Shown here piece by piece: positions 49,176-63,718 of a stretch of 64,000 nt of DNA. The notes under the pieces are model-generated. The model saw only the letters and a list, made by a program, of their open reading frames with translations, ran no database searches and was not told the origin of the DNA. The stretch spans positions 2,666,001-2,730,000 of the forward strand of contig CP136064.1 in NCBI GenBank assembly GCA_032622095.1. Reading direction: 5' to 3'. Source of the DNA: Siphonodentalium dalli (lineage: Eukaryota; Mollusca; Scaphopoda; Gadilida; Siphonodentaliidae). Numbering within the stretch: position 1 is the stretch's first letter; each line of letters begins with the position of its first letter. The translations under genes and the position numbers were made by a program.

Positions 49176-49858
49176 CCCTCTCTGGAGTTTAAATGTATGG
49201 GTCCCATTCTCCAATCCCCAAGTGGACTGGAACCCCCTCTCTGGAGTATAAATGTATGGGTCCCATTCTCCAATGTCCCATTCTCCAATCCCCAAGTGGA
49301 CTGGAACCCCCCATCTCTGGAGTGTAAATGTATGGGTCCCATTCTCCAATCCCCAAGTGGACTGGAACCCCCTATCTCCGGAGTGTAAATGTATGGGTCC
49401 CATTCTCCAATCCCCAAGTGGACTGGAACCCCCCTCTCTGGAGTATAAATGTATGGGTCCCATTCTCCAATGTCCCATTCTCCAATCCCCAAGTGGACTG
49501 GAACCCCCCATCTCTGGAGTGTAAATGTATGGGTCCCATTCTCCAATGTCCCATTCTCCAATCCCCAAGTGGACTGGAACCCCCCATCTCCGGAGTGTAA
49601 ATGTATGGGTCCCATTCTCCAATGTCCCATTCTCCAATCCCCAAGTGGACTGGAACCCCCCATCTCCGGAGTTTAAATGTATGGGTCCCATTCTCCAATC
49701 CCAAAGTGGACTGGAACCCCCCTCTCTGGAGTATAAATGTATGGGTCCCATTCTCCAATCCCCAAGTGGACTGGAACCCCCCCCCTCTCTGGGGTGTAAA
49801 TGAATGGGTCCCATTCTCCAATCCCCAAGTGGACTGGAACCCCCCTCTCTGGATGTAA
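49176..49858 (+). repeat. minisatellite with alternating ~60- and 76-bp units
   Basis: About eleven units of ATGTATGGGTCCCATTCTCC followed by CAAGTGGACTGGAACCCCC and CTCTGGAGT. Unit spacings are 59, 76, 61, 60, 76, 76, 76, 60 and 63 bp. The long units differ by an internal duplication of CCCATTCTCCAATGT. The motif has no stop in several frames on either strand, which gives many overlapping 75-243-codon frames; none looks like a protein family. It abuts zinc-finger segment A directly. Confidence 0.92.
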
Positions 49859-50467
49859 ATCATCAGAAATCATGAGGTATAGTCCACAGAAAGCACACAT
49901 TTATTCAATTAAATAAAACAATATTGACCTAAATTTCAATATGTTACAAGCCACAAACTTCAGAGTGTGCAATAATCATAGAACACAGTTGTGCGAACAT
50001 GGCACACATTTCTAATGTTGCGAGGTAAAACTTGAACCAATGTTTCTTGATTCAATATCGCGTCACAACAAACTTGTGCATTATTGTTAGCAGTTCACAA
50101 ACTTGTGTTCTATGTCTTCTCATGCTTTCATTAAGCTAACCAAAGAAATTGGTCTAAATTAAACTATAATCTGGGCATTCTTTGGAAGTTGTGAAGTAAT
50201 CAATTTTAATTTCATCTTTTTTAGCTATCTCCACACAGTTACTAACCAGCAATCTTGTTTTAAAATTAAAAAAATACATACCAGTTCTTTGATTTTACCT
50301 GCCCATATTGGAAAATTCATATATATCTAGACAACACTCTGCGTCTGTGCATGTGGTTGCAAAGACTGGCTTATGACAGAATACCCTATATGATACAAAT
50401 GTGGCAAACCGTCCCCAAATTACTGTAAATGCTGTTCCTTGCAATACACATGTCTTAAATATTTCAG

Positions 50468-50648
50468 ATGGCTGAATTGCTTTCTATGTAAAAAAAAATT
50501 CAAGAAAATACGTTAGAGAAACCGTCATGTAAGAGAACTGCATGTGAAGCGAGGACAAATGGAATGTTTTGAGTGCATCTACCATTGCAACAGGTGGGCA
50601 GATCTTTATCTCCACATTGAGAGAATGCATAGTTCTGGAGGTTTGTAA
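50468..50648 (+). pseudogene. two-finger C2H2 zinc-finger terminal exon, copy A, broken
   Basis: Starts after AATATTTCAG (ends 50467). Compared with copies B and C it has a 1-nt insertion (GAATTGC for GATTGC) and a TAG where they have a Tyr codon (CGTTAG for CGGTAT), so as read it stops after seven codons. In the finger frame all eight zinc ligands remain: CFLC with HVRELH, then CFEC with HIERMH, and the frame ends at the shared GGL-TAA. About 38 of ~180 positions differ from copy C while the flanks hardly differ. It was probably functional until recently. The AATAAA at 50840-50845 would serve as its polyadenylation signal. Confidence 0.6.
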
Positions 50649-50912
50649 AACAGTTAGAAATATAATTATAAATATAACCTGGTCTTACTAAATTGATTTA
50701 TCTACTTAGTTCTTTATAAAATTTGATGTTTAGTGATTAAGTAGATAGATTCTAAGGCTGTAATGATTCACAGTGAATTCAATGTATTGCAATGCACTAT
50801 CAAACGATACATGTATCGTGTCATGTGGTATCTCGATACAATAAATCAAGTAATTTCTGAAGGTGGTCATGTGTAAACCAGCAATGTTGTCTATAAGGGT
50901 ATTAACAAAGTT

Positions 50913-51190
50913 GTACTGGTACAATCAAATCTTAAACATTATATGCATAATACCTGAATAGTAGATACTATTACCTCATGGTGTTCACTCGAGTATCAAC
51001 AACGTTTTACTGGTACAAACAAATATTAAAACTTATATGCATATTTCCTGAATAGTAGATACTATAACATGGTGTCTATAAGGGTACAAATAAATCTTAA
51101 ACCTTATATGCATATTTCCTGAATAATAGATACTATTAACACATGGTATCACTAGAGTATTTAACAAAGTTTTACTGGTACAATCAAATA
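50913..51190 (+). repeat. ~94-bp tandem repeat, copy A tail
   Basis: About three imperfect units containing TACTGGTACAATCAAAT, TTATATGCATATTTCCTGAA and TAGTAGATACTATTA. The same array follows copies B and C. It lies beyond the putative polyadenylation signal. Confidence 0.7.
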
Positions 51191-53670
51191 TTAACTCTTT
51201 AACACTCAAATAGTTTTCTAGCGTAACCCTCAATGACGTGATTTGACGTGGCTACCTATTCCTCAATGACGTGATTTGACGTGTTGGTTTGCATGGCAAG
51301 TTTTTTGTTTATATACCCTTACCGAAATCTTAGTGATATCTTAGTGCTTCCTTAGTGATTGAATGCTGGAGGAAAATCACTAAGAAATCACTAACAATAA
51401 TCAGTAGGTGAAATGCCTAATAGGGAAAGTGAATGCTAATCTTAGTGCTTCTTAATGCTCAAGCACTACCTTAGTGCTTCCTTAGTCCTCTATTTGGGTG
51501 AAATATTCATGAGCTTAGTGCTCGAGCACTAAGCTTAGTGCTCGAGCACTAATCTAATTTACATATCACTAGTGCTTGCCTTAGTGCTCAAGCACTTATT
51601 TTTAATGATTTGTGAGCACTAAGGTTGAAATAATAAATTCCAGCTAATATAGTATAGGCTAGTAGTAAATAAACATGCACATGTACTCACAATTTATTCT
51701 ATAGGGTCCATATTTGTGTCCCACGGGTGTATATATAATCCTTCATTAAGTTTTTAATGAAATACAGTAATTTTCAAATTGATAACTTGATAACTTTTAA
51801 TTGGAAAAATAACATTTATACTAAACATCTGTAACATTTCATCGAACACTTATCTAAATCACGAATATATGTACATGATTCTCTATTCTGGTCTTCCTCG
51901 GTTTAATTGTACTGACTTATTCCTGCAAAGAGAAATAAAAAATATGTTTAAAATTTGAATTATAATGTTGAATCTAGGCATACTATTACTGAATGAGTGT
52001 CTAATCTCCAATGGATGCAAATAGCAATTCTGCCAATATGCGTTATTTGCAATCCGATGCTAGCTTAAATTTAAAAAAACATATTTTTGAAATAACAGAA
52101 CTATATGCCAATATTATCATTATTCCTACCTGTTTTCCATAAAATAAGACCCACTTATACATATATACTGATGATACTGTCCTAGCTGCCTCAAACTTTT
52201 GCAATTTAACTGAAAACTTTCAATGTTAAAGGAAATAATTTAAAAAAATCCTGTATAAGCATCATTTTTGCAATCCATGTTTTAATAATTTGGCATTTCA
52301 CACATTTGTATAACTCACTCTATAATCTCTTTCTTTTTTGCCATAAGTTGAGCTACCAGTACTGCTACTGAGAGATTGATTCAACTCCCTGCAATTCAAG
52401 CTGATTTCCTGCTGTATAGTCATGATGCAGTTTCTTCCCAAATCTTGCATGAATGCATGCTTCTTTGAAAGAGAAATTGTGAAATCTGAAATTAAAATAG
52501 AATAATTAATATGTCTTGGCTATAAAGATATTAAAGTCATATTTTTCTCTCATTTTGATCTTGGGGGGTACCATTAAAGAAAATATATTGGCCTTATAAA
52601 ATTGTTTATTGGGGAAGACAATTAGCACATTATAGTTAATTAATACACCCAGTGTAAGTTTCTTTTAAATATAAAAAATTGCAATATATCATTCAAATAT
52701 GTATATATAGATTTACACCTTGGAGGTGTGAGTCATTTTTTTATTTTCAAAAGGGTTAAATTTCCTATGAGAATTGATATATTAAATCCCATTTATACAT
52801 GTTTGTGTATTTTTAAAGGGAACCTGAGAATCTGGTGGAGAGTTTGGTGAATTGTGGCAGCTGGGCCTTGTAATGATCGCTGTAGCTATTTATATTTGTT
52901 TAATATTGCACTGTGTGTACTTGAGTTGGTGAAGTAATCCTGTGAATATTATTAGTACTGTTGACAATATCATAGTTTGGATTTTCATGAGGCAACATAT
53001 AAATTAAAAAGATTTATGAGAGTATATACTTACATTGTTCCCCATCCTGGTGCTGTTGTTTCTCCATCAAAAACACAGAAAAAACTGAGAAATTATCTCT
53101 TTTCACATACATAAATGTGTTAGGTATATATATTGAAAACATACTTCTTCCATATTCCGATTAAACTCACTGATTCTTTAGAAAAAATATGAGAATAACA
53201 GCTAGCTCCATGTGTATAATATATGACTGAGAGACAAACTATGGGTAGTCAAAACAAGAGAGCACATACACTATGACAAACATCTGTTGCTGATATTAAA
53301 GAAGTGTCAAATTACAAGATGTGGCTGGATTCCTTTGTGATGTAACTAAATTTAGAACAAGTTCAAATAATCCTATATAGGCTCCAGGGGGTGGTCAGAT
53401 TAGATGATTAATTTATATATATAGGCACTGTCTTGTCCCAGGAATATTTTTAGAGCATGCATATGATACAGTTGGTTTTATTGCAGTTTAATAGCTCCAA
53501 TTAAGAGCCAGCTAGTAGCTAGTACATGTAGTGAGAACAATTCGATCATTACTTGAATTAGTTAAGCAAATTGTCTCTTTTATAACTACTTTGATTCAGA
53601 ATTGGGGTAGTTTCAATTCATATTAATTATCAACTACTAGTACTTATAGATCCAAAATGGTATTACATGT

Positions 53671-54203
53671 ATTTCCAATTAAAAATTATATTTTAAATGT
53701 ATCTAAAAAAAATCAATAATTTTTGTCCCTTTTCAGAACAAATAATTGGAGAAAAATACATTTGAATAACACAAACTCATGTTGACTGGTCTGCCTGACT
53801 GAAAACATTATTATTTTATATAAAAAAAACAAAACAATATTAATAAATAATAATAATAATTTATTTATATAGGATATGAAGGGGTTGACAATCTGACAAT
53901 ATACTTTATATTGGTCTCACCTTGAAGTGTTGATCAAACCACTTATTTTGATATGTATAATGCACAGATCAACCAATTGTTGATGCAGCAATGGATTTTT
54001 TCTCACTTTTTCCATGAAATATCTGTTGAACCTGAGTTAGTTTAATTGCAAGAGATTCTCTGCTTGAAATAAACAAAGTTCTCAGCTGTAAGCACTAAGA
54101 GTGCCTTACTAGTGATTGAGAAAATCCCAGAAACATTAAATGACTGCTGTTATTTAGAAGCTAAATTCTTAGTGCTTCCTATTACTCCAATCTCATGGTT
54201 TTG
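53671..54203 (+). repeat. direct repeat, first copy
   Basis: Matches 54258-54702 with ~80% similarity by eye. Anchors are GCAATGGATTTTTTCTCACT (53988 and 54491, offset 503) and GCACTAAGAG with TAGTGATTGAGAAAATC. A TAATAATAATAATAATTTAT microsatellite (about 53841-53860) is present only in this copy. Confidence 0.7.
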
Positions 54204-54257
54204 ACATTGTGTATTGAATAGATATCTTTTGTTGCAAATATTTCACTTAAAAGATAG

Positions 54258-54702
54258 ATTTCCAATAAAAAAGTTTTTAAATGTATCTTAATCAGCCACA
54301 TTTTCCATCCTTGTTCAGAGAAAATATGTTCATGTGAGTGCATGTATGTGACACAAACTTACCCTAACTGGTCTGTTTCACTCAAAAATTATTTTTTAAT
54401 ATAAAAAAAATAATTGGTCTCAGCATGAAGAGTTCATCAAACTGCTTCTTTTGATATACATAAAGCACATACTAGTCAATACTTGTTACAGCAATGGATT
54501 TTTTCTCACTTTTTCCGTGAATTCCATGAACCTGACTTAGTTTATTTCAAGCAGAGATTCTCTTGAAATTAAACTAAGTTCTCTGTAAGCACTAAGAGTT
54601 CCTTACTAGTGATTGAGAAAATCTCACAAACATTAACTGACTGCAGATATTTGGAAGATAAATGCTTAGTGCTTCATATTACTCCAGTCTCATGGTTTAA
54701 AA
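54258..54702 (+). repeat. direct repeat, second copy
   Basis: The partner of 53671-54203. The pair accounts for part of the AGCACTAAG enrichment at the right end of the element by internal duplication. Confidence 0.7.
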
Positions 54703-54921
54703 CATCATGCAGCATTAACAATCAGATGGTTGGAGTACTAAGAATCACTAAGAATCACTAAGGAGAAAATCCCTTAGTGCTCAAGCACTAGCATTAGTGA
54801 TATTCTTAGTGCTTACACCCCACAAACATTAAGGAAATGTGGAAATTAATGATTCTTAGTGCTCGAGCACTAAGCAAGCACTAAGGAATCACTTATTTAG
54901 TGATTTCTTTCGGTAAGGGTA

Positions 54922-55507
54922 AACGGTGTATATTCAGTTTTTTTATGCTTTATTGAATATGAATACTGTGACATAACTGTTCAGATCAACACATTGTCGA
55001 TTTATTTATCAAGTAGCGGGAAGTTTATATCGCCAAGTGCAGTTTAATATGGAATAATCCATTTGAATCCCGGCTGGGGGTGCAAATAATTATTCCATTT
55101 TCAATGACATACTAGTATAGCGGTACCCAGGTATTACAACATACTGGTATCAGTACTGAAATTGTCTTCTAATGTTTCCAAATCCGCCTGAACAAACCAA
55201 AGATCTATTTCTTGTTGCCATTTTCTGAATAATTATATCGTTTGAACCAACTTTGCGATTCTTAATTCAACTTCGGTCGAGTGAAAACCACGTGTGTGTG
55301 TTGTGATGCAAACCGGAAGAGTGGATCAATCGGGAGGTTATTGGAAGAGCCTGTATAATTGATGGAAGAGCCGGACCAATCCAGTGACGGCAGAATCAAG
55401 CCTCACCCAAATAAGGAAGTTGGATTTATTTTTATTTTTTATTGATATTGGGAATCGTAGGGATTATTCATATTTAAGAGACGAGTGACACCATCGCAAC
55501 AGATAAA
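54922..55507. other. interior of the TTAA-bounded element, no gene seen
   Basis: Mixed sequence with the short motif GGAAGAG repeated at about 55315-55370. There is no long open frame and no paired splice sites. Confidence 0.4.
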
Positions 55508-56224
55508 TACTCTAGTAGCTGCATGAGGGCGTTTCGTATGCACTTTTATGTCCAGAACAAAACTCTTCACGAATCCACTAATTGAAGGTACACGAACAAT
55601 ATTTGGTTGGTGACACATTTCCCATTGAGGGCGAAATGGGTCAAATGGCCACGCCCTTTTTTGCGCGAAGTACTACCATCCGCCGTGACTATATCTCGAG
55701 AACCGTTGGTCAAAGGGGGTCGTGTGACCACTCAAAATGTGCAGAATGGCCACATTATGGGGGGTCAATAATACATTTTCATATCCAAAAGTCAATGGTT
55801 TTTAAGATAATTGCCAAAAACAAAAATAAATCCATTTTTAAGGGCACAATTTTGGGGTTCAGCACTTTTATCTCAAAGCTGAGCCCCCAATTCAAATTTT
55901 ATTGATCTATATCCATCGGTGCCACATATAGGTATAATTTCTGTAGCATTAGTGGATGAGATTGACCTCCAAGGAGCTCTTGACCCTGAAAATAAGGTTT
56001 TTGGATAGAATATATTGGTCGTAGAATGAAAAACAGACATTTTCCCCAATAACAAAGATGTTGAGGAAATCATCAATTATACGGTATTTGATCAGTAACC
56101 TAAAACTCCTACAAAAAGGTTACCTGGTGATATAATTTGAATGTAGTTCATCTTTTGTTATCTAGATTTCATGGCCTTTGATGTGATATGGCTGCCAAAA
56201 TGGTTATAAATGGAATGACATATA
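55508..56224 (+). repeat. left long inverted arm
   Basis: Contains GCACTTTTATGTCCAGA, GGGCGAAATGGGTCAAATGG and GATCTATATCCATCGGTG. It pairs with 58681-59394. Confidence 0.8.
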
Positions 56225-56231
56225 TCAACAC

Positions 56232-56402
56232 AATTTTATTGATCTATATCCATCGGTGCCACATATAGGTATATTTTCTGTACCATTATCGGATGGGATT
56301 GACCTCCAAGGAGCTCTTGACCCTGAAAATCCACAGTATGGGGGGTCAGTAATACATTTTCATATCCAAAAGTCAATGGTTTTTAAGATAATTGCCAAAA
56401 AA
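56232..56402 (+). repeat. scrambled partial copy of the arm
   Basis: 56232-56331 repeats arm positions ~55894-55992 (up to GACCCTGAAAAT). 56331-56402 then repeats arm positions ~55750-55820 (CCACATTATGGGGGGTC onward, here CCACAGTATGG). The two pieces are in swapped order, directly inside the left arm. Confidence 0.75.
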
Positions 56403-56408
56403 ACGATT

Positions 56409-58680
56409 TCAGCATGTTACGCACCACAAGTATACAATACATCCAAGGCCACAGCATATGTATGACACTTTTTAAAGAACTATCCGAATTCTCTGATCGA
56501 CTTAAGAGCACAATTGACCACACACAATGGGATTAGCTGGAAATTGCTGCTGAGGATGTGTTGATCCCGACACACAACGTGAGCTCTTCATGACTGAACA
56601 TGCCTTGGAAACTGGTGTGCTTTACCAAAAATCAGGTAACAATTGTGCTCTAATCAACAGAAATGTACAGATTGAACAAAACAGGTTTTCAAAATTTGTT
56701 ATCAACATTTAACAGCTGATCTGATTTAAGTGACCAAGATATGAAACATGCTAAACACTTTTACTAAATGGAATAACCAGCTGTTTGCTTCATGCAGCAG
56801 CCACGTGTTGCGATCCTAAAATGGGTATTGCACCTGGGCATAGTAAAAACATGTTGTAATCAGATGGGAGATGACCATATATACCAGTATATATTTCAGA
56901 AGTAATCAATTCTTACAAAAGGACACCTCATCTCACAAAAAGTTTTAGGAAATGATGGAATGATCACTATTCAATCAATAGTAGAATGAGCCTTTGTCAG
57001 TCACACATTAGTTTTGATTGGCCATGATAGTTGCATCACTTGCAGGTTGGAGAAGATGAGGGTCTATAATTTCACTAACATAATTCTTCATAATAGCTAA
57101 TAGCCCTCATAACTTACCATTTTAAAGATATTTTCATTTTCAATACCACCTCAGGTTAAGTCGTCCTGCTAATTTTATATTATGCTGATGGGTACTGCTG
57201 TATTGATATGTTTGTAGGTCAAAGCAATTCTGTCAAGTACCATCATTTTACCTAAAGTTGGTTATTTTTGCATTGTTTGCCTAACCCGAGCAATTTGTGC
57301 AAGAGTCAGTGTCTGTATGCAACATTCAAGAACATATATACTTCAAAATTTTATTGTGTACGCTGATGTTTGGTAAACAACAGGAATAGTCATCTCAATT
57401 ATGACCAGTTTGTAAAAACCAGCACCCATTATTAAAATATTTCACAATATACATGTTTTTTAATGTTTTCTACACATTGTGGCTTATCCTCGATTCGTTC
57501 AGATCGCTTTGCTCCACCTGAATATCATACCAAATGTATTAGCATCACCACTACTGAATACTGCCAAATGAATATATTGTGATAAGGGCAGTGGAAAAAT
57601 AATGGTTGAGTGTTTTCTAAATATAATTCTAGTAAAACCTACACAATACCGTCTTGGTCTGATAAGACTCAGAGTCATGCTTATTTAGGAGTATAGACAT
57701 GAAGTCCACCAGTCTCATGAAAATTAAATGGGCTCTGCACTAGTAACATCTGGACTCCTGGGACCCATTAATATTGACAAATGCAACACAAATGAAAAAT
57801 ACATAGTAACTTTCCTCAAACATAGATTATACCCTGACAATCATTGTATTTGAATCAGTGTACATATGTAGGCATGGCCATAGCATGTTTTTGAAATACT
57901 GCAGAGTGCAGACCATAAATTTCACTAGAATATACATGTAGTTACTGCATGTACACCACACACATAAGGCGACTGACACACATAAACGTACCTGCAGGGT
58001 TCACAATATTTTACATGTAAAGTATATATATATCTCCTGTGCCTATAACATCAAACCAAACGGTTTACAGTACTTTTACTGACATTTTTGGAGTGGCACA
58101 TATACATGCATAAAAAATAAAAGTCAATTTAAAGGGACGAAATGAAAAATAAATTTGTGCAACTATAATGGAGATCTATATTGCATTACAACATCCACAA
58201 ATCTACAAAATCTACAACATCCACAAATCTACAAAATCTACAAAAACATCTGACTATCTTAGACATTGGTAATGTGATCATTTTTCCTTGAGGGAGGATT
58301 GCATAGCATGGCTACATGCAGAATGTAGATTTGTATGTATTTATATCTGCATATCAACTGATGCTTGTATTTTTCTTCTAACTCACTCCAGGCTAGCCAT
58401 TATTTGTTCTAGAATAATGTACATGTTAGGGAAATTGTAGAACCTTTATACAAAATGGTGATGCAGCCAATCAAAATTGATGTGGGACTGATAAAGACAC
58501 AACCTGCTCGACTACTGAATCATACTGATTGATCAAATTGTAGTAACTCAACATTTACTAAACCTACTTGTGGGCTGAGTATAATTCAATTCAACATTAG
58601 AATACCATAAAAACACCCTGTTCTCCCATAAGTTTAAAGAAAATAACACATTGAACTCATTTACAAGTATATTGCTAATG
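56409..58680. other. AT-rich interior of the long-arm element
   Basis: No open frame above ~60 codons and no recognisable coding remnant. A 27-bp unit (ACATCCACAAATCTACAAAA type) is repeated about twice at 58188-58247. Otherwise I see nothing to annotate. Confidence 0.5.
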
Positions 58681-59394
58681 TGATATGTCATTCCATTTAT
58701 AACCATTTTGGCAGCCATCTCACATCAAAGGCCATGAAATCTAGATAACAAAAGATGAACTACATTCAAATTATATCACCAGGTAACCTTTTTGTAGGAG
58801 TTTTAGGTTACTGATCAAATACCGTATAATTGATGATTTCCTCAACATCTTTGTTATTGGGAAAATGTCTGTTTTTCATTCTACGACCAATATATTCCAT
58901 CCAAAAACCTTATTTTCAGGATCAAGAGCTCCTGGGAGGTCAATCTCATCCACTAATGGTACAGAAATTATACCTATATGTGGCACCGATGGATATAGAT
59001 CAATAAAATTTGAATTGGGGGCTCAGCTTTGAGATAAAAGTGCTGAACCCCAAAATTGTGCCCTTAAAAATGGATTTTTTTTGGTTTTTGGCAATTATCT
59101 TAAAAACCATTGACTTTTGGATATGAAAATGTATTACTGATCCCCCCATAATGTGGCCATTTTGCACATTTTGAGTGGTCACACGACCCCCTATGTCCAA
59201 CAGTTCTGGAGATATAGTCACGGCGGGTGGTAGTACTTCGCGCAAAAAGGGGCGTGGCCATTTGACCCATTTCGCCCTCAATGGGAAATGTGTCACCAAC
59301 CAAATATTGTTCGTGTACCTTCAATTAGTGGATTCGTGAAGAGTTTTGCTCTGGACATAAAAGTGCATACGAAACGCCCTCAGCTACTAGAGTA
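58681..59394 (-). repeat. right long inverted arm
   Basis: Reverse complement of 55508-56224. It has a few substitutions (for example GCATTAGTGG in the left arm against ACCATTAGTGG here) and small indels in the A-run of the AAAACAAAAATAAATCC block. Confidence 0.8.
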
Positions 59395-59960
59395 AAATAA
59401 ACAACGCGTTTTGCGAAAGCGACAAACTGAAAATGACGCAACCAACAATCACGTCATAAAATGTTATGATTTACTCGATATTAAAGCTAGATTTTTCCAG
59501 TTTTCTCCGCAAAAGTTTAAATTATAATCGGAGATGGGATGTGTATTCCCTTCATAACAAGGATTTCCCCCTAAACAAACAGTCTGTTCAACTTTTTCTG
59601 GTGACTTTCTCAACTTTTCCGAGGAAGTTTGGCATAAATAAAAATGAAATTTTATCCATTCCTGCATGATTTAGACCAACCAGTTCCGTTGTATAGGCGT
59701 GATTCTCACAATGAAAATTTAGCTGGTAATAAGTTGTAGAATAACGGATACAATTTGCATTTAAATGTAACTTTCGGTGTTGTTCAAGAAATTCGCGGTA
59801 ACAACATGTCTAATAAAATTATCAATAAGCGAGCACAATAAATTCGCTACTAATTACGCCCTGTTGTCTACCTTGATGTTACATTTGAGGGCTGTCCCGG
59901 GCAACGTCACAGATACCCGTTAGACACGTCAAATCACGTCATTGAGGGTTAAAGAGTTAA
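59395..59960. other. right part of the TTAA-bounded element
   Basis: Sequence between the long-arm element and the right TTAA end. Two mirrored 67-codon frames at 59464-59669 overlap on opposite strands with no family signature. The last ~36 bp are the inverted terminal repeat. Confidence 0.45.
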
Positions 59961-59994
59961 AGCAACATGGCAAAGAATATATTATTACTTTCAG

Positions 59995-60119
59995 ACGAAT
60001 TCATCAACAACGTTCAAGCATTGATGGGAGCAGAGGTGGATGTTGAAGTACTCGACAGAAAGGCGGAACTAAAATCCATGTCAAAAGAGCAGGGGGGCAG
60101 ATTTATGTCTGGAGGATGA
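59995..60119 (+). CDS. candidate terminal exon, unknown protein
   Basis: Follows TATTATTACTTTCAG (ends 59994). Read in the phase that needs one upstream base, it gives EFINNVQALMGAEVDVEVLD, then RKAELKSMSKEQGGRFMSGG and TGA at 60117-60119. An AATAAA at about 60173 follows. The composition is protein-like and the other two phases stop earlier. It lies between the TTAA-bounded element and zinc-finger segment B, so it may be a further alternative 3' exon of the same gene or the end of another gene. I recognise no domain. Confidence 0.35.
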
Positions 60120-60734
60120 CATGTTCGCACCGCATTACAAACAAATTACGTCATTGACGATGTCGACTTTAAAATAAAATGTTTTCACTAAATCATCAGA
60201 AATCATGAGGTATAGTCCAAAGAAAGCACACATTTATTCAATTAAATAAAACAATATTGACCTAAATTTCAATATGTTACAAGCCACAAACTTCAGAGTG
60301 TGCAATAATCATAGAACACAGTTGTGTGAACATGGCACACATTTCTAATGTTGCGAGGTAAAACTCGAACCAATGTTTCTTGATTCAATATCGCGTCACA
60401 ACAAACTTGTGCATTATTGTTAGCAGTTCACAAACTTGTGTTCTATGTCTTCTCATGCTTTCATTAAGCTAACCAAAGAAATTGGTCTAAATTAAACTAT
60501 AATCTGGGCATTCTTTGGAAGTTGTGAAGTAATCAATTTTAATTTCCATCTTTTTTAGCTATCTCCACACAGTTACTAACCAGCAATCTTGTTTTAAAAT
60601 TAAAAAAATACATGCCAGTTCTTTGATTTTACCTGCCCATATTGGAAAAGTCATATATATCTAGACAACACTCTGCGTCTGTGCATGTGGTTGCAAAGAC
60701 TGGCTTATGACAGAATACCCTATATGATACAAAT

Positions 60735-61965
60735 TAGTGCTGAAACGGTTGACCTATTTTTGTAGCCGGTTAACCGCGACGTGTAACCGGATCATAACCG
60801 GTTATCCGCTATTTTCAACCTATGACTTTAAACTGATTATTTACACCATAATATGTACCAATATATCAGTATAATTTGATTTATTAACTGTATGGCAAAC
60901 TCGCGTAATGTTTACACAGACATAGCTTCTATTAAACGAATGTAAATCACCAAACACGAACGTCACAAAGCCACGTGTTGACAACTTGGCAGATGACACA
61001 GTGAACTAAAACTCAGTTTTTATAAATAGACGTGTCATGCTTGACCTGTTTGTACTGCAGTTGCGACTGCTACCTGACTTGTTATCGTTCTCGTCTTGGG
61101 AAGAATATTGTGTGACCTATATACATGTTCGTACATGCAAATATCAGAAGTGTTTTTTTTATTGCCATTATAGCGTTTGCGGGACTGGCCGATTATTAGG
61201 TCATGTGACTCAGGTATTCTAACTGCTGGGTGTTCTTTGGCAATTTGAGATTGATAGGATCATGACTGACATCGATAAACACAATTATGAAGATTGTGAA
61301 CTTTATGTAGTTAACAAATGAAAATAAAAAAATCAGCTGAAAACAGTGTTTTCTGTTATAAGACAATCAAATGCTGAGAATTTATAGTCATTAGTAGGAT
61401 GCAAATAAGTCCGACTGCACGAGAACACCACTTAAGTGATTCGAGTTCATTTGAACTTCATCGACTGAGATTACTCAAACTCAGTAATGTTACCGTAGAA
61501 GTATAGACCGAGCGTATGTAAATAGGGTTGGTTCTCAGAGATTGCATTCTGCCAATTTCTCTTTGAAATGTGCCCAGGCATCTGATTTACTCATTTCTTG
61601 GGTATCCATGATACTGTCTGCAAGTAGTGAGTCGGAGAGTAGAAGTCAAATGATCACGCCGTACTGCAGTGAAAACGATTGTATTGATCTTTGCCGATGA
61701 CCAGGTGGCGTCAGTGCACGTGTTTTACCGGACATAGGAATATCAAAGATGACGTCATGCATCTTTGATGTTTAGCCGCCAATGACAGACTATGTAATCT
61801 ACCATTCATGGAAGACTTTTGATCTGAAGGACCTGAACACGATAGTTTTTATCAGTGGCATTGCATGTGTGTATTACATAGCGGTTAACCGGTTGATCGT
61901 AGTTCAACCGGTTGCCGACGGTAGCCGGTTGCCAACCGGTTATCCGGATATCCGTTTCAGCACTA
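60735..61965. mobile_element. hAT-like non-autonomous element, 1231 bp, with 8-bp target duplication
   Basis: Terminal inverted repeats TAGTGCTGAAACGG (60735-60748) and CCGTTTCAGCACTA (61952-61965). Both sides carry the perfect 8-bp duplication ATACAAAT (60727-60734 and 61966-61973), the length made by hAT transposases. Copies A and C show the uninterrupted site GATACAAATGTGG. Subterminal AACCGGTT/GCCGGTTAACC motifs cluster within ~100 bp of each end. Short open frames inside (61037-61222, 61782-62048) show no transposase features. Near 61742-61769 a dyad ATCAAAGATG/CATCTTTGAT encloses GACGTCA. Confidence 0.9.
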
Positions 61966-62040
61966 ATACAAATGTGGCAAAGCGTCCCCAAATTATGATA
62001 ATTGCTGTGCCTTGCAATACACATGTCTTAAATATTTCAG

Positions 62041-62214
62041 ATGGCTGATTGCTATATATGTCGAAAGAAAATATTGTATAGAAACCGTCATGTAAGAGAA
62101 CTACACGTTAAGCCAGGACTTATAGAATGTTTTGACTGCAACTACAAGTGCAACAGGTGGGGAAATCTTTCGATCCACATGAAGAGAATTCATCATGGTT
62201 GTGGAGGTTTGTAA
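62041..62214 (+). CDS. two-finger C2H2 zinc-finger terminal exon, copy B
   Basis: Acceptor AATATTTCAG ends at 62040. The frame runs 57 codons to TAA at 62212-62214. Finger 1 is CYIC followed by only nine residues and HVRELH, because 9 nt present in copy C are missing. Finger 2 is a canonical C-X2-C-X12-H-X4-H (CFDC, NRWGNLSI, HMKRIH). It ends HGCGGL. A pair of fingers in a short 3' exon with its own stop and AATAAA (62406-62411) is the layout of the alternative C-terminal exons of lola-type BTB zinc-finger genes; that assignment is inference. The Met at the start is probably internal, since the acceptor sits directly before it. The shortened first finger may not fold normally. Confidence 0.65.
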   Translation: MADCYICRKKILYRNRHVRELHVKPGLIECFDCNYKCNRWGNLSIHMKRIHHGCGGL

Positions 62215-62477
62215 AACAGTTAGAAATATAATTATAAATATAACCTGGTCTTACTAAATTGATTTATCTACTTAGTTCTTTATAAAATTTGATGTTTAGT
62301 GATTAAGTAGATAGATTCTAAGGCTGTAATGATTCACAGTGAATTCAATGTATTGCAATGCACTACCAAACGATACATGTATCGTGTCATCTGGTATCTC
62401 GATAAAATAAATCAAGTAATTTCTGAAGGTGGTCATGTGTAAACCAGCAATGTTGTCTATAAGGGTATCAACAAAGT

Positions 62478-62584
62478 TGTACTGGTACAAACAAATCTTA
62501 AACATTATATGCATATTACCTGAATAGTAGATACTATTACCTCATGGTGTTCACTCGAGTATCAACAAAGTTTTACTTGTACAA
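62478..62584 (+). repeat. 94-bp tandem repeat, copy B tail
   Basis: Little more than one unit, broken off at AATCAAATATTA, after which copy B loses similarity to A and C. Confidence 0.6.
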
Positions 62585-62913
62585 TCAAATATTACAACTA
62601 AACTTTCTGAAATCGGTTCCGTCCGCTCCACTATTACATGTAGTCTTTATTTATCTGGGACGATTTCTTTACAAAGGCAAACAACAAATAGTTAAGTCAA
62701 TCTTCATGGCATACCTTATAGAAGCTGATGTTAGTTTCGCTTCCCAAAGGCTCAGTCCAAACCTAACTTACTGGACTCATTTTGTAAATTCTGATATAAA
62801 CCGGATCTCAAAATCCATAAAATGTTTTCAAAAATCAAAATATATCTGCTGCAAATCAGCTGCCTTTTATGAGAATCAAACTAAGAATTCTGATTCTTAT
62901 CAGATTTTTAGCC
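62585..62913. other. spacer between zinc-finger segments B and C
   Basis: Not shared with A. A 126-codon + frame (62544-62924) starts inside the 94-bp repeat and ends inside copy C. I see no domain or splice signals in it, and since it spans three sequence blocks of different origin I do not treat it as a gene. Confidence 0.4.
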
Positions 62914-63015
62914 CTGGCTTATGACATAATACCCTATATGATACAAATGTGGCAAACCGTCCCCAAATTACTGTAAATGCTGTTCCTTGCAATACACATG
63001 TCTTAAATATTTCAG

Positions 63016-63198
63016 ATCTCTGATTGCTATAGATGTCGAAAGACATTCAAGAAAATACGGTATAGAAACCATCATGTAAGAGAACTACATTATAAGCCAG
63101 GACTTATAGAACGTTTTGACTGCAACTACAAGTGCAACAGGTGGGGAAATCTTTCGATCCACATGAAGAGAATTCATCATGGTTGTGGAGGTTTGTAA
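63016..63198 (+). CDS. two-finger C2H2 zinc-finger terminal exon, copy C
   Basis: Acceptor AATATTTCAG ends at 63015. Sixty codons run to TAA at 63196-63198. Finger 1 is canonical: CYRC, twelve residues (RKTFKKIRYRNH) and HVRELH. Finger 2 has lost its first ligand: ERFDC where copy B has ECFDC (CGT for TGT). The rest (NRWGNLSI, HMKRIH) is intact and identical in DNA to copy B. Exon entry lacks the Met found in A and B (ATCTCT for ATGGCT), so it can only be translated as part of a spliced message. The AATAAA at 63390-63395 is in the same place as in A. Confidence 0.62.
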   Translation: MSDCYRCRKTFKKIRYRNHHVRELHYKPGLIERFDCNYKCNRWGNLSIHMKRIHHGCGGL

Positions 63199-63462
63199 AA
63201 CAGTTAGAAATATAATTATAAATATAACCTGGTCTTACTAAATTGATTTATCTACTTAGTTCTTTATAAAATTTGATGTTTAGTGATTAAGTAGATAGAT
63301 TCTAAGGCTGTAATGATTCACAGTGAATTCAATGTATTGCAATGCACTATCAAACGATACATGTATCGTGTCATCTGGTATCTCGATACAATAAATCAAG
63401 TAATTTCTGAAGGTGGTCATGTGTAAACCAGCAATGTTGTCTATAAGGGTATTAACAAAGTT

Positions 63463-63718
63463 GTACTGGTACAATCAAATCTTAAACATTATATGCATAT
63501 TTCCTGAATAGTAGATACTATTACCTCATGGTGTTCACTCGAGTATCAACAAAGTTGTACTGGTACAATCAAATCTTAAAACTTATATGCATATTTCCTG
63601 AATAGTAGATACTATTACCTCATGGTGTTCACTCGAGTATAAATAACGTTGTACTGGTACAAACAAATCTTAAACCTTATATGCATATTTCCTGAATAAT
63701 AGATACTATTAACACATA
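63463..63718 (+). repeat. ~94-bp tandem repeat, copy C tail
   Basis: About three units with TACTGGTACAATCAAAT, TTATATGCATATTTCCTGAA and CATGGTGTTCACTCGAGTAT. The last is truncated at CACATATTG. Confidence 0.75.

Follow-up and report, generated by a model that had tools for sequence, protein, structure and literature searches.

The window analysed here is a 64,000-nucleotide stretch of the scaphopod Siphonodentalium dalli genome (contig CP136064.1, here C4; window, C4:2666001-2730000); the genome comprises 2.23 Gb in nine contigs. The window carries three copies, named A, B and C, of a short segment with two C2H2 zinc fingers. A preliminary description had reported that the fingers of A and C differ strongly while the sequence on both sides is nearly identical.

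The two-finger family and its copies

Searches of the genome with DNA and protein queries listed 18 two-finger segments on C4, and these search counts are lower bounds. Sixteen segments lie on the plus strand at 2.614-2.729 Mb, one lies on the minus strand at 2.787 Mb and one at 2.947 Mb. The locus is a tandem cluster of 17 similar copies in C4:2.614-2.787 Mb with one further copy at 2.947 Mb; three additional 43-bp end fragments were found. Apart from the window copies A, B and C, the names give the C4 position in kb (e2614 and so on), with e2786m for the minus-strand copy. Outside the cluster, the protein matches listed (148 in all) reached at most 55% identity, with the exception of the two pieces of e2946. 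Relatives on contig C7 occur at two places, with 54-55% protein identity.

The reading frame of the unit is small (57-64 residues, two C2H2 fingers). The e2614 protein scored 28.5 bits for PF00096, above the Pfam cut-off of 25.2, and the B-type protein of copy B scored 22.2 bits, under that cut-off. Variable sites in the proximal upstream sequence and the finger segment separate two main lineages, A-type (A, e2619 and e2661) and B-type (e2618 to e2663, and B). An intact frame from ATG to stop with both fingers is present in 13 of the 18 C4 copies. A 9-nucleotide (nt) deletion that shortens finger 1 is common to ten intact copies and the broken e2663. The five damaged copies are A, C, e2661 (frameshift), e2663 (Cys to Arg) and e2946 (frameshift). 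The features in and around the three window copies are as follows.

49860..50400, plus strand: distal upstream flank of A, of the B-unit type; 98.3-99.1% identical to B and ten B-type copies at C4:2.617-2.663 Mb
50366..50467, plus strand: proximal upstream sequence of A, A-type; 102/102 identical to e2619 and 101/102 to e2661 and C
50468..50648, plus strand: two-finger segment of copy A, A-type, damaged (from translation and alignment)
50649..50938, plus strand: 3' flank of A; 1-5 differences in about 290 positions to C, B, e2652, e2663 and e2618
50666-50713: minisatellite unit in the 3' flank of A, starting 18 nt past the stop
60193..60734, plus strand: distal upstream flank of B; 542 positions align with A (5 mismatches, 1 gap)
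60735..61965, no strand assigned: hAT-like insertion of 1,231 bp interrupting the B upstream sequence (from reading of the sequence)
62041..62214, plus strand: two-finger open reading frame (ORF) of copy B, B-type, intact, with the 9-nt deletion in finger 1
62416..63015, plus strand: upstream sequence of C, of the A-unit (ancestral) type; 98.2% identical to e2661 over 600 bp and 96.6% to e2619 over 551 bp
63016..63198, plus strand: two-finger segment of copy C, B-type, 9 nt retained, damaged
63199..63488, plus strand: 3' flank of C; 1 difference from A in 290
63216-63263: minisatellite unit in the 3' flank of C

The insertion in B is flanked by an 8-bp target duplication (ATACAAAT at 60727-60734 and 61966-61973) and ends in a terminal inverted repeat (TAGTGCTGAAACGG / CCGTTTCAGCACTA); it is called hAT-like from the length of this duplication. 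The left part of the C upstream sequence overlaps the 3' flank of B.

Two further duplications involve members of the family. An inverted duplicate of ~3.4 kb (99.1% identity; L005:4490-7869 and L013:1566-4942) carries e2614 and e2786m, which lie on opposite strands ~170 kb apart at both ends of the cluster. C7 carries another tandem family of related two-finger segments, which is older (L015 and L016, at 183.78 and 183.09 Mb) and is itself duplicated, with ~96% identity over 2.1 kb, at two places ~690 kb apart.

Mosaic structure of the copies

The contrast between A and C was reproduced. The finger segments, said to differ at about 38 of some 180 positions, showed 35 (pairwise) or 36 (multiple alignment) substitutions when 180 positions were aligned; upstream, no difference was seen in 76 bp (0/76), as had been reported, and the downstream flank held the single reported difference (1/290). 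Fingers at 35/180 versus flanks at 2/330 (90 upstream, 240 downstream) gave a Fisher P value of 4.7e-15. The conclusion that plain neutral decay after duplication cannot yield such a pattern was right. The similarity of the A and B upstream flanks over about 540 bp also holds in numbers but is misleading, in that the hAT-like insertion of B lies between the A-matching distal flank and the finger segment, and there are 7 differences between A and B within the proximal 76 bp.

Comparison with the other copies showed that A and C each combine sequence of both types. Upstream, A aligned with the B-type copy e2652 over 600 positions (8 mismatches, one gap), while its match to the A-type copy e2619 was confined to the last 102 bp, at 100%; correspondingly, e2619, e2661 and C match only the last 35 bp of the A upstream flank at 49860..50400. 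The proximal upstream sequence of A differed from e2652 at 5 of 76 positions. The A-type patch in A begins between 50366 and about 50409 and ends at nt 167 of the segment or later, its right end being hidden by the uniform 3' flank. The upstream sequence of C matched e2661 across all 600 bp, and its finger segment differed at 4 of 174 positions from the B-type e2663 but at 36 of 180 from A. The long upstream sequence common to e2619, e2661 and C is also present in e2946 at 89.6-92.8%; for C, the matching blocks of 166 and 212 positions were 92.8% and 90.1% identical.

By these alignments, copy A is a B-type unit with an A-type patch (proximal upstream sequence and fingers) and copy C as an A-type unit with a B-type finger segment. 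As reciprocal recombinants, A and C have identical proximal upstream sequences and different finger segments, and their comparison sets two old finger lineages between recently related flanks. The A/C contrast is real, yet it belongs to two recombinant copies.

The positions of the breakpoints vary from copy to copy. In C, the switch of the variable sites from A- to B-type falls between -31 and +14. In e2619 and e2661, they are A-type to nt 117 and B-type from nt 131, and e2619 returns to the A-like state at the single site 167. In 20-bp windows, the A/C divergence spans the finger segment, as the preliminary description would lead one to expect, but the borders move in the other pairs: between A and e2652, divergence starts about 60 bp upstream (proximal upstream, 5/90), and between e2619 and e2652 it nearly ceases at about nt 120, only a single difference following farther along the segment. 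Shared derived changes link e2619 with e2661 and C with e2663. In the pairwise homoplasy index (PHI) test on 8 of the 18 copies, 88 of the 351 pairs of informative sites were incompatible (P = 0.0002); this set left aside seven B-type copies (e2629, e2638, e2640, e2643, e2645, e2654 and e2657), e2614 and e2786m, whose upstream sequence is not homologous, and the outgroup e2946. Run-length tests gave P = 0.0035 (A-C) and P = 0.0005 (B-C) before any correction for the 28 pairs.

These breakpoints bear on the proposal that the finger exon is swapped in a programmed or targeted manner as an exact cassette from a distant donor. The A/C change does fall at TTTCAG and GGAGGTTTGTAA, as had been observed, although the splice acceptor there is assumed and the borders differ in other pairs. 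The likely donors of the replaced segments are neighbours in the same array, and the listed matches outside the cluster are of low identity, the two e2946 pieces excepted. No flanking signal for a cassette was noticed by eye, and no dedicated search was run. The exact cassette is contradicted by the moving breakpoints and is regarded as extremely improbable. The wider suggestion of a mechanism for diversifying terminal DNA-binding exons is not supported either: breakpoints ignore the borders, A and C are both damaged, and the status as alternative terminal exons was assumed. The statement that the zinc ligands are mostly kept hides this damage. In copy A, a 1-bp insertion follows the ATG, and the frame that encodes the first cysteine and the fingers is interrupted by an in-frame TAG. 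In copy C, the ATG is gone and arginine has taken the place of one finger-2 cysteine.

The 3' flank was near-uniform in nine cluster copies over 223 nt (1-5 differences; e2786m, 5-9). The other seven cluster copies carry minisatellite or insertion changes there and did not enter the 223-nt comparison, and beyond about 235 nt downstream the sequence is not homologous in e2619, e2661, e2614, e2786m and e2946. Since this flank carries no marks of A- or B-type, the right ends of tracts cannot be located within it, and the apparent right border at the stop reflects the uniform 3' flank. Amplification of a 48-bp unit, which begins 18 nt past the stop, has produced hundreds of copies within 2.620-2.662 Mb, and 556 exact 32-mer cores of the unit were counted in C4:2608001-2750000 (142 kb). 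Exchange would have homogenised the 3' flank, and the minisatellite expansion may reflect the same exchange. Large 48/104-bp minisatellite arrays derived from this flank occupy C4:2620000-2662000 (L006-L010).

The mosaic pattern very probably has an ordinary cause, namely, non-allelic conversion or unequal exchange in a tandem array. Tandem units with two old finger lineages would exchange short tracts by such events. Copy A would have formed when an A-type tract covering at least about 180-230 bp (proximal upstream sequence and finger segment) entered a B-type unit, and copy C when a B-type finger segment entered an A-type unit; in e2619 and e2661, most of the final third of the segment would have been replaced by B-type sequence. 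Among the copies compared, e2614 included, the 3' flank would have become homogenised, and in the cluster's left half it has grown into large 48-bp minisatellite arrays. The tracts would be due to conversion and not to paired crossovers. Two of the three options offered in the preliminary description, conversion that homogenises flanks and replacement of the segment, come close to this, and the third, diversifying selection, is not needed.

False mosaics could also arise by assembly, through collapsed or chimeric tandem copies in a neighbourhood that is highly repetitive, with an 18-copy array of 2.5-kb units and long minisatellite arrays. The mosaic states, however, recur in separate copies with shared derived changes (e2619/e2661 and C/e2663), and no N occurs in the 142 kb examined. 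An artefact is given only a slim chance.

A pairwise view of two recombinant copies can mimic diversifying selection or exon-cassette exchange, and most of the paradox disappears once the other copies, their wider flanks and outgroups are considered. The cluster would be a natural example of non-allelic exchange beside a minisatellite grown from the 3' flank of a small ORF.

Rates, selection and the age of the finger lineages

The synonymous sites of the finger segment are old. Between e2619 and e2614 or e2786m, 4.5-5 synonymous differences were counted in 20-28 sites (dS, the synonymous divergence per site, 0.20-0.30); over all estimates for the segment dS ranged from about 0.18 to 0.30, against about 1-4% divergence in the 3' flank. 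For e2619 versus e2614, synonymous differences of 4.5/20.2 exceeded the 3/234 of the 3' flank (P = 0.0009 or less), and for e2619 versus e2786m (3' flank, 9/234) the synonymous excess had a P value of 0.0099. The ratio of nonsynonymous to synonymous divergence (dN/dS) for e2619 versus e2786m, e2614 and C was 0.43-0.76 by our own count and 0.43-0.81 by Biopython, with bootstrap limits from 0.14 to 2.7 and intervals that include 1 (38-52 codons).

Distance matrices and the flank comparison with e2946 covered 11 of the 18 C4 copies; in comparisons with e2946 the flank was trimmed to homologous sequence, as the last part of the 240 nt downstream is non-homologous in that copy. No significant excess of finger over flank divergence was found for the B-type e2652 versus e2946 (17/171 versus 18/277; P = 0.21) or for C versus e2946 (19/180 versus 20/277; P = 0.23). 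Neither C7 control pair showed a finger excess: the duplicate pair had 4/174 in the fingers and 18/858 in the flanks (P = 0.78), and the tandem pair had 25/170 and 74/423 (P = 0.47). The excess is thus not family-wide, being absent in the C7 pairs, non-significant in e2652 and C, and present in A and e2619.

Several observations weigh against exchange between old lineages as the whole explanation. A versus e2946 differed at 28/180 finger positions and 18/277 flank positions (P = 0.002; untrimmed, P = 0.054), the first 126 nt of e2619 differed from e2946 at 20/126 versus 19/277 in the flank (P = 0.006), and the fingers of A differed from e2652 at 29/171 versus 5/90 upstream (P = 0.011). We read these excesses as the mark of a finger lineage older than e2946, with faster evolution of the A-type fingers as the less likely reading. 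The dN/dS intervals reach 1.5-2.7, and the run-length tests (A-C, P = 0.0035) lack correction for the 28 pairs. The three A-type copies show no old 3'-flank variation, so that at least one further exchange is needed. The junctions themselves are read from the assembly.

On the question of acceleration, distances to the C7 relative c7a over 126 nt were 40 for A, 39 for e2619, 41 for C, 40 for e2786m and 34 for e2946, and this relative-rate comparison with C7 gave no sign of a faster A-type branch. Polarisation by e2946 assigned 23 of the A-C differences to A and 12 to C (P = 0.09); polarisation by c7a assigned 14 and 13, with nine undecided. The polarised counts fit both an old lineage and acceleration of the A-type. 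Because the A-type is no further from C7, it is likelier that its finger segment is an older lineage that split before e2946 than that it accelerated. Some relaxation of constraint in the A-type copies is likely as well.

Diversifying (positive) selection might instead have sped finger substitutions after a recent duplication, in the manner of venom toxins. The excess of A-type fingers over flanks against e2946 (P = 0.002 and 0.006) is in its favour, as are six amino-acid-changing codons on the A-type branch (Y to F, T to K, L to Q, I to M, N to I and K to H). The placeable codons of that branch also include four synonymous changes, however, and the synonymous sites have diverged too. Frameshifts in A and e2661 and the stop in A speak against it in addition. 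As the main cause, diversifying selection was rejected on the synonymous divergence, the dN/dS values (0.43-0.81), the C7 controls and the c7a distances; it is considered very improbable, with a small share left to it by the A-type excess against e2946.

A different role for selection is conceivable, in which two functional finger types are held distinct under conversion and a divergence peak is left on the fingers. Such a peak is described for exon 5 of the human red and green opsin genes (PMC3924837), and the peak on the finger segment in A versus C resembles it. Ligands and frame are intact in e2619 and in 10 of the 11 single-lineage B-type copies. On the other hand, the two copies that form the peak, A and C, are both damaged, only one of the three A-type copies is intact, and the divergent tract takes in the proximal upstream sequence and covers the segment only partly in e2619 and e2661. 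Selection for difference is considered unlikely.

The array could also be a shuffling ground, in which conversion moves whole or partial two-finger modules from one unit background to another and so itself creates new combinations for selection to keep; this is distinctly doubtful. Copy e2619 is an intact chimera, its first finger being A-type and the helix of its second finger largely B-type. If the two-finger ORFs are expressed, e2619 would allow a test of whether conversion supplies novel finger combinations.

Reading frame, parallels and neighbouring repeats

The preliminary description treated the segments as terminal exons. An ATG-initiated small ORF appears at least as likely from the sequence. 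The start ATGGCTGA is present in the B-type copies, e2619, e2661, A, e2946 and both intact C7 relatives; it is lost in C and not found in e2614 and e2786m, which start MDWGTSY. By eye, the distance from the assumed CAG to the first Cys is 9 nt in the B-type, 10 in the damaged A and 37 in e2614, and the phases differ, with the acceptors assumed. The ORFs presumably are, or were, translated.

Clustered short C2H2-finger segments ending in a stop recall lola, a likeness of finger arrangement only. Alternative terminal zinc-finger exons of the lola type are also known from mod(mdg4). In lola the variable segments are joined to a common BTB region (PMC1947980), whereas on C4 no BTB match lies before 35.8 Mb among the 144 matches listed (150 of 226 candidates scored). 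A host gene with a BTB exon near the locus finds no support among the candidates scored.

Closer parallels are found where conversion acts on part of a unit. In exon 5 of the human red/green opsins, a coding segment is diverged and its flanks are near-identical through conversion (PMC3924837); a title in the reference list of that paper concerns the RHD/RHCE case. The finger cluster resembles this case in the divergence peak on a coding segment with homogenised non-coding flanks; it differs in that selection is inferred there to separate two working genes, whereas here the peak copies are damaged and the breakpoints wander. In the fugu protocadherin variable exons, the 3' region is >99% identical among paralogues, the 5' part is divergent and the pattern is ascribed to regional conversion (PMC1852091). 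The likeness lies in tandem units with a homogenised 3' region and a divergent 5' part, and the difference in that those are long variable exons of a known protein family, while the present ones are small ORFs read from DNA and are not known to have a constant exon. By analogy, the finger array would work like the opsin and protocadherin cases, with selection unlikely to keep the peak here. In snake three-finger toxins, the account of accelerated segment switch in exons to alter targeting (ASSET) describes exon segments that differ between similar introns with cysteines kept (PMC2474615). The switched toxin segments are 12.5-50% identical, and altered targeting is proposed there; the segments here are homologous, with old synonymous sites.

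Other repeats lie to the left of and between the window copies. Positions 1-45428 hold eighteen head-to-tail units of 2,498-2,501 bp each; the 300-bp stretches compared were 99-100% identical, except for one at 92% in the last copy. Each unit contains one RhoGAP exon (PF00620; the first scored 29.8 bits) whose ends look splice-like to the eye, and the only other relative of this exon among the matches listed was at C4:2504524, with 45% identity. The finger search placed no match in this 2.5-kb array. Left of copy A, a short tandem repeat of roughly 60-70-bp units was seen by eye at 49500-49860. A long inverted repeat spans 55524-59382, with arm blocks of 241, 288 and 183 bp that are 97-99% complementary and a centre of about 2.46 kb, resembling a fold-back element.

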